A stretch of 64,000 bases of DNA from Pseudoxanthobacter soli DSM 19599. Its GTDB lineage: Bacteria > Pseudomonadota > Alphaproteobacteria > Rhizobiales > Segnochrobactraceae. Positions 17,886-21,953 of the stretch are shown here, in pieces. Both the position numbers and the translations under genes were made by a program. The stretch covers positions 310,001 through 374,000 of the forward strand of contig NZ_FRXO01000004.1 in assembly GCF_900148505.1 (NCBI RefSeq), read 5' to 3'. The notes under the pieces are model-generated. The model did no database searches. It was not told where the DNA came from and worked only from the letters and a program-made list of their open reading frames with translations. Each line of letters begins with the position of its first letter. Position 1 is the stretch's first letter.

Positions 17886-19010
17886 TCAGCCCTTTGCCCA
17901 GAGCCGTCCCAGTTCGGCGCGCACCTCCGCGAAGCGGCCCTGCTCGATCGCCGTGCGCAGCGTTTTCATGAGGTGCTGATAGTAGGCGATGTTGTTCCAC
18001 GTCAGCAGCATGGCGCCCAGCCCCTCGCCGCAGCGCACGAGGTGGTGGAGATAGGCGCGGCTGTAGTCGCGCGCCGCCGGGCAGTCGCTCTCGGGATCGA
18101 GCGGCGCCGGATCGTCCGCATGCCGCGCGTTCTTCAGGTTGAGCTTGCCGAACCGGGTATAGGCCACGCCGTGACGGCCGGCGCGGGTCGGCATGACGCA
18201 ATCGAACATGTCGATGCCGCGGGCCACCGCCTCGATGATGTCGTGGGGCGTGCCGACGCCCATCAGATAGCGCGGCTTTTCCGCCGGCAGCACCGGCAGC
18301 GTCTCGTCGAGCATGGCCAGCATCACGTCCTGAGGCTCGCCCACGGCAAGCCCGCCGATGGAATAGCCTTCGAACGGCATCGCCGACAGCGCCGCGGCGG
18401 ATTCCACCCGCAGGCCGGCATCGTCGCCGCCCTGCACGATGCCGAACAGCGCCTGCCCCTTGGCGGGACCGTCCATCGCCTCGAACGCGGCACGGGAACG
18501 CTCCGCCCAGCGCAGCGACAGCCGCATGCCGCGCTCGACCTCCTTGCGTTCCGCCGGAAGGCGCACGCACTCGTCGAGCTGCATCTGGATGTCGGAGCCG
18601 AGAAGGCCCTGGATCTCAACCGATCGTTCAGGCGTGAGGAGGTGGCGCGAGCCGTCGATGTGGCTCTGGAACGCGACGCCGTGCTCCTCAAGCTTTCTGA
18701 GGCCCGACAGCGACATGATCTGGAAGCCGCCGGAATCCGTCAGGATGGTCCGGTTCCAGCGCATGAAGGTGTGGAGGCCGCCGAGGCCGGACACCCGCTC
18801 GGCGGTCGGGCGGAGCATAAGGTGATAGGTGTTGCCGAGCACGACCTCGGCGCCCGTGGCCGCCACATCCTCCGGAAACATCGCCTTGACGGTGGCCTGG
18901 GTTCCGACCGGCATGAAGGCGGGCGTCTCCACCGTGCCGTGGGCGGTGTGCAGACGACCGCGCCGGGCGGCGTCGTCCTGGCCGAGCGGTTCGTAGCGGA
19001 AGGGCGTCAT
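17886..19010 (-). CDS. tgt: queuine tRNA-ribosyltransferase with a degenerate zinc site
   Basis: Exchanges guanine-34 for the queuosine precursor preQ1 in tRNAs with GUN anticodons. It has 374 residues. General-base Asp is in [12 protein letters not shown] and nucleophile Asp in [15 protein letters not shown]. Substrate-binding FGIVQGG is present. The structural zinc site normally reads C-x-C-x2-C plus a downstream His. Here the positions are Ser308, Cys310, Ala313 and, by alignment around TWNNIAYYQ, Asn339. Only one ligand of four is kept. The gene is otherwise intact and overlaps the queA stop (ATGA), so it is probably functional without zinc or with another metal-free fold. The ribosome site lies within queA. 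Confidence 0.95.
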
Positions 19011-20113
19011 GTTGGCTCCCGTGGGGCACCTGCGCCCGCGTCCCGGAACAGGAGCGAGCCGTCGCCATAGGAATAAAATCTGTAACCGCTCGCGATGGCA
19101 TGGGCATAAGCCCGGCGCATGGCATCCGTGCCGGCGAAGGCGCAGACGAGCATGAACAGCGTCGAACGCGGCAGGTGGAAGTTCGTCATCAGCACATCGA
19201 CGATGCGGAAGCGATAGCCCGGCGTGATGAAGATATCGGTCGCGCCGTCGAACGGATGCAGGGTGCCGCTTTCGTCGGCGGCGCTCTCCAGCAGGCGCAG
19301 CGCCGTGGTGCCGACGGCGACGATCCGTCCGCCCGCCGCGCGAGCGGCGTTGATGCGCGCCGCAGCGTCAGGCGTGATGACGCCGCGCTCGGAATGCATC
19401 CGATGGCCTTCGGTGGTTTCCGCCTTGACGGGCAGAAAGGTGCCCGCGCCGACATGGAGCGTGAGAAAAACGTGTTCGACGCCAGTCTCTTGAAGGCGTT
19501 CGATCAGGTCTTCCGTGAGGTGCAGGCTCGCGGTCGGTGCCGCGACGGCGCCGGGTTCGCGGGCGAACACGGTCTGATAGTCTTCCCGGTCGGCCGCGTC
19601 GTCGGCGCGCTTGTTGCCGATGTAGGGCGGCAGCGGAATGCGGCCTGCGAGCGCGATGGCACGGTCGAGATCCGGCCCGCCACGGTCGAAGGCGAGCACG
19701 ATCTCGCCGCCCTCGTTCTTCTCGGCGACGGTCGCGGCGAACGGTTCGACGCCTTCGCCGCCATTCCCACCGAAGCCGATGACATCCCCGACCCTCAACC
19801 GCTTGCCGGGCCGGGCGAGCGCCACCCAGCGGGACGGGTCGAGCCGCTCGATCAGCGTCGCCTCGATCCGCGCCTCGGCGCCGTCGTCGCGGCGCCGCAC
19901 GCCGTCGAGCCGGGCGGGGATGACACGGGTGTCGTTGAAGACGAGGAGATCGCCGGGGCGAAGCAGCGAGACGAGGTCGCGGATCCCCCGATCGTCAAGT
20001 TCCGGTTCGCCGCCCGGCCGCACCACGAGAAGGCGCGCCGCGTCGCGCGGGCGCGCGGGGCGCAGCGCGATCGCGCTTTCGGGCAGGTCGAAATCGAAAT
20101 CGTCGGTTCGCAT
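19007..20113 (-). CDS. queA: S-adenosylmethionine:tRNA ribosyltransferase-isomerase
   Basis: Transfers and rearranges the ribose of SAM onto preQ1 in tRNA to give epoxyqueuosine, the step after Tgt. It has 368 residues from [19 protein letters not shown], the standard QueA start; an upstream in-frame start adds 26 unrelated residues. Typical blocks are [55 protein letters not shown] and [33 protein letters not shown]. It is coupled to tgt by a four-base overlap. Confidence 0.96.
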
Positions 20114-20209
20114 GGCTTCTGAGCGAGAGGCGCCGCCGGGATCGCTCCCGGCGGCGGCAACGGACTGGAACGGATGAGGGGCCGGTCGCAAATGGCCGGC
20201 CGCTTCAGG

Positions 20210-20689
20210 TCAGGCGGCGATGTCGGCCGCGACCTTCATGGAGTTGATCTTGTCGGGGTTCACCACCGGCTCGCCGCGCTTGATCTTGTCCACATTTTCC
20301 ATGCCCTCGATCACTTCGCCAAACACGGTGTACTGGCCGTTCAGGAAGTGGCCGGGCTCGAACATGATGAAGAACTGGGAATTGCCCGAGTTCGGGTTCT
20401 GGGAGCGGGCCATGCCGACCACGCCGCGGTTGAACGGCGTCTTGGTGAATTCGGCGGGCAGATTGGGATAGCTGGAGCCGCCCATGCCGGTGCCCTGCGG
20501 GCAGCCGGTCTGCGCCATGAAGCCTTCGATGACGCGGTGGAACACGATGCCGTCATAGAAGCCCTCGCGGGCGAGCGTCTTCAGGCGCTCGACGTGCTTC
20601 GGCGCCAGATCGGGGCGAAGCGCAATGACGACGCGGCCCTTGGTGGTGTCGACGACGAGGGTGTTTTCCGGATCCTTGATCTCGGCCAT
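20210..20689 (-). CDS. cytosolic peptidyl-prolyl cis-trans isomerase, cyclophilin type
   Basis: Cyclophilin of 159 residues without a signal peptide; speeds prolyl isomerisation during folding. The core runs from TTKGRVVIALRPDLAPKHVERLK through FHRVIEGFMAQTGCPQGTGMGG to NSQFFIMF, keeping the catalytic Arg in FHRV and the QFF element. A strong AAGAAGGAA ribosome site precedes ATG 20689. A second cyclophilin with a signal peptide lies just upstream; the pair is usual between coaD and queA in rhizobia and serves two compartments. Confidence 0.94.
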   Translation of the reverse strand: MAEIKDPENTLVVDTTKGRVVIALRPDLAPKHVERLKTLAREGFYDGIVFHRVIEGFMAQTGCPQGTGMGGSSYPNLPAEFTKTPFNRGVVGMARSQNPNSGNSQFFIMFEPGHFLNGQYTVFGEVIEGMENVDKIKRGEPVVNPDKINSMKVAADIAA

Positions 20690-20764: not shown

Positions 20765-21325
20765 TCACTCGACCCAGGCCTTGATGATCTTGTCGGGGTT
20801 GGTGACCATGCCGTTGTCGTTCGCATTGCCCTTCTTGATCGCGTCCACGACATCCATGCCCGAGATCACCTGGCCGACCACGGTGTACTGGCCGTTCAGG
20901 AAGTCGCCCGGCGCGAACATGATGAAGAACTGGGAATTGGCCGAGTTCGGATCCTGGGCGCGTGCCATGCCGACGGTGCCGCGCTTGAAGGGCACCTTGG
21001 AGAACTCCGCCGGCAGATCCGGCAGGTTCGAGCCGCCCATGCCGGTACCGGTCGGATCGCCGGTCTGCGCCATGAAGCCGTCGATCACGCGGTGGAACAC
21101 CACGCCGTTGTAGAAGCCCTGGGAAGCCAGGGTTTCCAGCCGCTCGGCGGCCTTCGGCGCATCCTTCTTGTCGAGCTGGATCTTGACGTCGCCGCCCTTG
21201 AGCTGGAGCACGAGGACATCGGCGGCCGAGGCGGCCTGCGCGGCGAGAGCGCCAGCGCCGAGAACGAATGCCGCGACGGCCTTGCCGATGAGCATGGTGC
21301 GGCTGCGGCTGAGGAATGAACGCAT
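20765..21325 (-). CDS. periplasmic peptidyl-prolyl cis-trans isomerase, cyclophilin type
   Basis: Cyclophilin of 186 residues whose first 33 residues are a signal peptide: basic MRSFLSRSR, a hydrophobic stretch, then AAQAASA before the cleavage site. The mature part has GGDVKIQLDKKDAPKAAERL, FHRVIDGFMAQTGDPTGTGMGG and NSQFFIMFAPGDFLNGQYTVVG. It is clearly a duplicate of the cytosolic gene next door and works on exported proteins. Start chosen at the signal-peptide Met; 44 in-frame codons upstream are not part of the family. Confidence 0.93.
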   Translation of the reverse strand: MRSFLSRSRTMLIGKAVAAFVLGAGALAAQAASAADVLVLQLKGGDVKIQLDKKDAPKAAERLETLASQGFYNGVVFHRVIDGFMAQTGDPTGTGMGGSNLPDLPAEFSKVPFKRGTVGMARAQDPNSANSQFFIMFAPGDFLNGQYTVVGQVISGMDVVDAIKKGNANDNGMVTNPDKIIKAWVE

Positions 21326-21395
21326 CGGAAGGGCTCCGGTAAGGATGCCGGCGGCGGCGCTTCGGCCTTTCCGCTGCATCTGTGAAACGGTGTCG

Positions 21396-21953
21396 TCAGC
21401 GGCGGTGCTTCGCATCGAGGCGGCGCAGGACGGGGGCCGGCACGAAGGGCGCGACATCGCCGCCGAGAGCCGCGATCTGCCGGACCAGGGTGGCGGTGAT
21501 ATGGCGCACCGAAGGCGAAGCCGGCACGAACACCGTCTGGACGCCCGGCGCCATCACGCCATTCATGCCCGCCATCTGCATTTCATAGTCGAGATCGGAG
21601 CCGTCGCGAAGGCCGCGGACGATGACCGTCGCGCCGACGGCGCGGGCGGCCTCCACCACGAGCCCGTCAAAGGCGATGACGCCGATGCGCCGGGCCGCGG
21701 CCTCGCCGAACCGGTCGGCGGCGACTTCGCCGAGCATCGCCACTCGCTCCTCGAAGGAGAACATCGGGGTCTTGCCGGGATGGATGCCGATGGCAACGAC
21801 GACCTTGTCGGCGAGCGCCAGCGTCCTGGCAATGACGTCGACGTGACCCTCCGTGACCGGATCGAACGAGCCGGAATAAAGCGCCACGCGGAGTGCGCCG
21901 CCGGTCTCGCCGAGAGTGACATCCACGCCGGTCGGCGCCTGATGGTCGGTCAT
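21396..21953 (-). CDS. coaD: phosphopantetheine adenylyltransferase
   Basis: Penultimate step of coenzyme A synthesis: transfers AMP from ATP to 4'-phosphopantetheine. Core motifs are [19 protein letters not shown] (nucleotidyltransferase TxGH), [21 protein letters not shown], and [19 protein letters not shown] in place of the ISSTxVR signature. From MTDHQAP it has 185 residues, about 20 longer at the N-terminus than typical; a start nearer [11 protein letters not shown] is possible but lacks an ATG. First gene of the coaD-ppi-ppi-queA-tgt group. Confidence 0.95.

Follow-up and report, generated by a model that had tools for sequence, protein, structure and literature searches.

The window, a stretch of 64,000 nucleotides analysed as a whole, carries on its minus strand (17886 to 19010) an open reading frame of 374 amino acids that encodes a full-length bacterial tRNA guanosine(34) transglycosylase (tgt). 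The identification was based on a score of 466.7 bits against TIGR00430, above the curated equivalog cut-off of 306.75, and on a PDB alignment in which the Zymomonas mobilis TGT spanned residues 6 to 365. Bacterial Tgt is usually described with a structural zinc bound by the motif C-x-C-x2-C and a later histidine, and in the canonical enzyme the metal is held by the C-terminal subdomain, here residues 282 to 346 (17973 to 18167, minus strand). At the ligand positions the Zymomonas alignment revealed Ser308 (codon 18087 to 18089, minus strand, as for all codons given; first cysteine, present in 30 of 30 Tgts from other classes of the phylum), Cys310 (18081 to 18083; second cysteine, kept), Ala313 (18072 to 18074; third cysteine) and Asn339 (17994 to 17996; histidine), exactly the residues named in the first-pass annotation. 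The four-ligand set is not present in this protein, which, reading S308, C310, A313 and N339, is therefore not filed under the canonical zinc-binding subtype.

The active site was intact, as had also been claimed from the sequence. D92, D146, Q193, G220, M250 and D270 are all present and were invariant in the alphaproteobacterial rows compared, 83 of the zinc type and 193 lacking ligands; 30 divergent rows were left out of this comparison. D146, Q193, G220 and M250 presumably have roles in the substrate pocket. The catalytic aspartate pair (PMC6165067) corresponds to Asp92 in the motif DSGGFQ (codon 18735 to 18737; Asp102 in Zymomonas numbering) and to Asp270 in DCVMPTR (18201 to 18203; Asp280 in Zymomonas numbering). 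The sequence IGGLAVGE at residue 218 contains GGLAVG, the motif of a preQ1-type pocket according to the accessible text of PMC10723273. Directly upstream lies queA (19007 to 20191, minus strand; NF001140, 456.3 bits), and the coupling of the two genes suggested earlier was borne out by an ATGA overlap of the queA stop and the tgt start on the same strand. Further upstream of queA-tgt, two cyclophilin-type peptidyl-prolyl isomerase genes are arranged in tandem (20210 to 20689 and 20765 to 21457, both minus strand), each scoring under the cut-offs of the curated PpiA/PpiB models; a peptidylprolyl isomerase gene is located upstream of tgt in Sinorhizobium meliloti Ak57, too.

A scan of the whole genome (5.16 Mb, 27 contigs, rated 100 % complete by its own figures) gave a single PF01702 match, thus the gene in the window is the sole tgt, and the second copy with intact ligands considered at first as a possible refutation was not found. 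The genome carries QueA, QueG (438.4 bits) and a QPTR-type transporter gene (PF02592). QueF had no match in the whole genome. The sole PF06508 match as a QueC candidate (25.9 bits) was rejected, being situated in a tRNA 2-thiouridylase-like frame that we take to be MnmA/TrmU. In the family, the QPTR-type transporter was present in all three genomes examined and QueF in none of the three. The host thus looks like a predicted preQ1 salvager with an incomplete Q pathway (loci L344, L345 and L346): lacking QueF and a true QueC, it would depend for its queuosine on the import of preQ1. On the level of the order, QueF scored over the cut-off in 210 of 297 genomes, hence ligand loss is not tied to the loss of synthesis.

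An incomplete pathway may also be read as a sign that the gene is decaying and non-functional, its ligands gone since the gene is no longer needed. The missing QueF and QueC fit this reading, and a decay of the Q pathway is known from Bartonella: the accessible text of PMC10723273 reports only traces of preQ1 and Q in tRNA of B. henselae, about 1000 times below a typical E. coli sample. We consider decay very improbable for the tgt of the window, however. Catalytic and pocket residues are kept, the overlap with queA is preserved, QueG and the QPTR-type gene are present, and the same ligand loss spans an order in which most genomes have QueF. Ratios of pN/pS against eight relatives ranged from 0.26 to 0.46 for the entire gene and from 0.20 to 0.49 for residues 282 to 346, values that are rough owing to a skewed composition and to saturation in the comparison with Bartonella. 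The former zinc subdomain is constrained to about the same degree as other parts of tgt, and the gene is, as judged from these ratios, under purifying selection.

The distribution of the ligands was determined over 338 rows. In the host's own order, none of 102 distinct full-length Tgts had four ligands; 87 kept one, eight none and seven two. These 102 proteins came from 286 genomes with a Tgt match among 297 genomes searched, a non-random sample of mostly best-scoring matches with some low-scoring ones picked. The set from other alphaproteobacterial orders comprised 126 loci from 123 genomes: 97 Tgts had all four ligands, 14 one, 12 two and three had three ligands. Tgts from other classes of the phylum were intact in all 30 cases read. 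With 30 of 30 intact there and at least two ligands gone in 102 of 102 own-order proteins, the difference is not due to chance. Among 80 named relatives, 70 had lost ligands, including Rhizobium, Sinorhizobium, Agrobacterium, Mesorhizobium, Brucella, Bartonella, Bradyrhizobium and Methylobacterium; the ten with all four were Rhodospirillales, Roseomonas and MAGs labelled only Alphaproteobacteria or Proteobacteria. One Tgt of Paracoccus (Rhodobacterales) and one of Sphingomonas also kept all four ligands. Four partial own-order Tgts (L340 to L343), four partial ones from other orders (G327, G365, G366 and G394) and the duplicates L001 and L330 were left out of the counts. Two of the own-order partials stop short of the site, and the two readable ones (TCS- and SCAV) are ligand-poor as well. 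L223 and L270, ligand-lacking Tgts of other orders in which the site was hard to align, were counted. Two genomes of other orders have a second, very divergent Tgt-like gene beside an ordinary one: L270 (genome G330) lacks all three cysteines, while L269 (G317) has four ligands. The lineage trait that the first-pass annotation had thought possible is supported by these residue counts across the own order, as far as sampled, and is larger in scale than one gene.

The substitutions followed a pattern. In 201 ligand-lacking rows, position 308 was Ser in 170 and position 310 retained Cys in 170; position 313 was Ala (110 rows), Ser (51) or Thr (17), and position 339 was Asn (76), Ala (39), His (37), Ile (25) or Val (17). 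In Bradyrhizobium and some other rows, Trp at 310 (11 rows in all) goes together with Ile or Asn at 339. No ligand at all was left in 18 of the 338 rows, Bradyrhizobium included, and zinc binding via the canonical site is therefore impossible in those proteins.

The clearest change outside the ligands that accompanied their loss was His280 (codon 18171 to 18173), located just after the PTR motif. Of 163 compared rows without His339, 98 % had His at this position. The 83 zinc-type alphaproteobacterial rows carried Thr or Asn there in 95 % of cases, and the 30 rows of other classes invariably Asn. Together with the frequent retention of Cys310 and with Asp315, which is commoner in ligand-lacking rows, these frequencies could be taken to mean that a metal is still bound by migrated ligands, e.g., Cys310, His280 and one acidic residue like Asp315. 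Against such a site, His280 is also carried by 22 of 23 divergent rows in which the four ligands are complete, and in a tree-aware pair test of 10 pairs about 4 were with the association, 0.1 against and 5.9 without a difference (median p 0.125), a test that was unable to reach 0.05 because so few pairs differ. The rows without any ligand and those with Trp310 cannot be explained by a shared substitute site. Migrated ligands thus seem improbable to us. His280 as a substitute ligand was suggestive by frequency, though unsupported given relatedness and the zinc-type rows with His280; it is kept as a lead, and the alignment offered no clean compensation. Of sixteen other covarying positions, at least 142, 229 and one more were not significant in the pair test.

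The four positions were also mapped on phylogenies, as the first-pass annotation had proposed, and the loss extended across the order and into other alphaproteobacterial lines. A FastTree of 340 rows, built with the ligand columns removed, placed 175 ligand-lacking rows in one clade (support 89) that takes in 100 of 104 own-order rows, and scattered the other ligand-lacking rows. This tree requires at least 17 changes between the states 'four ligands' and 'fewer', a version with 336 rows at least 16 and a tree of 89 rows at least 7. Such counts cannot separate loss from gain; loss is the natural reading because all 30 outgroup rows are intact. For the 89-row tree a mixture model was used and the 30 alphaproteobacterial rows of greatest divergence were set aside; 38 of the 86 inner branches were open. 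In this tree the own-order rows form two main groups and a more distant single row, L316; these are connected through open forks, to which zinc-type rows (e.g., L106, L192 and L139) attach. One loss ancestral to the order explains the larger tree most simply, and with own-order rows split at open forks in the smaller one it falls short of proof. L316 and L335 (family code f4) originate from small genomes of the own order, about 0.9 to 1.6 Mb; their Tgts are long-branched and were placed outside the main clade in the large tree, L316 also in the 89-row tree, perhaps due to branch length or composition.

Judged by both trees, ligands were lost more than once in Alphaproteobacteria, because L092 (SCAN) and L232 (SCSN) adjoin the zinc-type L139 in each of them. 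The order of events left a trace in the 338 rows: the histidine was never gone with three cysteines intact, while at least one cysteine was gone with the histidine kept in 37 rows. The sole missing ligand was the third cysteine in L126 and L226 and the second in L261, thus the first step varied. The histidine position shows Asn in more than one place on the trees (L131; L092 with L232; the main clade). The loss in the order may most simply be seen as ancestral, probably with the cysteines going first and the histidine last, and with parallels in other alphaproteobacterial lines. A wider generalisation seems to us evenly balanced between right and wrong, namely that the structural zinc of Tgt is dispensable and was lost several times in Alphaproteobacteria in this sequence of steps, that the end state S-C-[A/S]-N was reached more than once, that the hosts still make and use queuosine, and that the loss became permanent in the ancestor of one entire order.

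Modelling of the C-terminal subdomain, likewise among the checks proposed, predicted a well-folded structure. The AlphaFold2 model of the window Tgt, calculated with 42 sequences, had a mean pLDDT of 93.3, and 10-residue blocks within residues 282 to 346 averaged 94 to 97. Superposition on the covalent RNA intermediate of the Z. mobilis TGT (1q2r) yielded a Z score of 56.0 and an rmsd of 1.3 over 371 residues, and a Foldseek search (E 4.7e-51, TM 0.96) assigned the TGT fold over the whole length. For comparison, the model of L105, a Roseomonas Tgt in which no ligand is missing, had a mean pLDDT of 92.2 and a best Z of 55.4. In the blocks of the cysteine positions, the window Tgt scored 95 and 97 and the Roseomonas Tgt 86. 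As proof of a zinc-free stability this contrast was discarded; it is a hint at most because AlphaFold2 was run without metal.

A partner protein, of which no sign emerged, might stabilise the subdomain instead of zinc. A changed interface is conceivable, as part of the hot spot of the Zymomonas TGT homodimer, which includes Trp326, Tyr330 and His333 in the accessible text of PMC5395182, sits just after the cysteine motif. The equivalents in the window Tgt are Tyr316, Tyr320 and His323, aromatic or kept and well conserved. The fold predicted for one chain by itself has a high confidence, and in E. coli the B. henselae bTGT works on its own (PMC10723273). A need for a partner therefore has hardly any probability in our view.

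Published work on relatives bears on the function. In S. meliloti 1021, a tgt mutant did not induce the queuosine-dependent changes of HeLa cells in low serum, and preQ1 rescued queC and queF mutants but not the tgt mutant, as described in the accessible text of PMC3568095. The ligand positions read SCTN in the Tgt of S. meliloti Ak57, a strain that differs from the 1021 of the mutant work. With preQ1 concentrations down to 10 nM, the bTGT of B. henselae complemented a queDF tgt mutant of E. coli, although tRNA of B. henselae itself had no more than the traces of preQ1 mentioned above (PMC10723273, accessible text). The Tgts of two of its congeners (L081 and L090) read SCAN. The word 'zinc' is absent from the main texts of PMC3568095 and PMC10723273. 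These studies support that a ligand-lacking Tgt works in relatives, with the residues taken from congeners or strain Ak57 and the function from B. henselae or strain 1021.

We therefore regard it as highly probable that the window encodes a working, zinc-independent enzyme, the only Tgt of the organism and the expression of a lineage trait. The zinc-free queuosine enzyme postulated from the sequence gains support from the single Tgt and the function in relatives, and the absence of metal would follow from the missing ligands. By analogy with the published function of relatives, the enzyme would act on GUN tRNAs by the covalent Asp mechanism usual for Tgt and swap guanine 34 for preQ1, the host presumably importing the preQ1, and QueA, encoded just upstream, and QueG would then complete queuosine. 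The C-terminal subdomain would fold and pack as in a zinc-bearing Tgt without the structural zinc: three ligands have been replaced by the small or polar residues Ser, Ala and Asn, the remaining cysteine would be an ordinary core residue, and an ordinary packed core may stand in place of the metal.

This working, zinc-independent Tgt resembles the enzymes of Z. mobilis and E. coli (TIGR00430) in its full-length fold (54 % identity to the former), catalytic Asp pair, GGLAVG pocket and dimer hot-spot positions, and differs in the replacement of three of four ligands (S308, A313, N339). With the bTGT of B. henselae it shares the presumed affiliation, Hyphomicrobiales being the order of the window's nearest named relatives, and the SCAN residues of the two congeners; however, B. 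henselae lost other Q genes, queA and queG included (PMC10723273, accessible text), both of which are kept by the window host. S. meliloti has in strain Ak57 a Tgt equally depleted in ligands, but possesses queC and queF (PMC3568095, accessible text), neither of which was found in the window host. A zinc site absent in some bacteria, with the protein kept, is described for the different proteins ribosomal protein S4 (PMC3087516) and bacterial glutamyl-tRNA synthetase (PMC4381286), each in the accessible text. A 2022 paper on E. coli states, in its accessible text, that zinc is required for TGT activity (PMC9508795). Among the matches listed for the open-access literature, judged by titles, starts of abstracts and passages, a zinc-free Tgt is not described.

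A large set of bacteria with relevance to agriculture and medicine, rhizobia included, appears to manage without the zinc of Tgt, so that in this order the supposed reliance of the queuosine pathway on zinc loses one of its links. The natural zinc-free and intermediate sequences provide a means to ask for the role of the metal in an enzyme that has been suggested as a target for drugs against shigellosis (PMC5395182, accessible text), and they call for caution against annotating zinc in ligand-lacking Tgts. As a minor observation on the strains compared, the tgt of S. meliloti Ak57 (L352) is located on a 3.7-Mb record named pSymB, possibly an error in the labelling of the record; in S. meliloti 1021 the gene is chromosomal according to the accessible text of PMC3568095.
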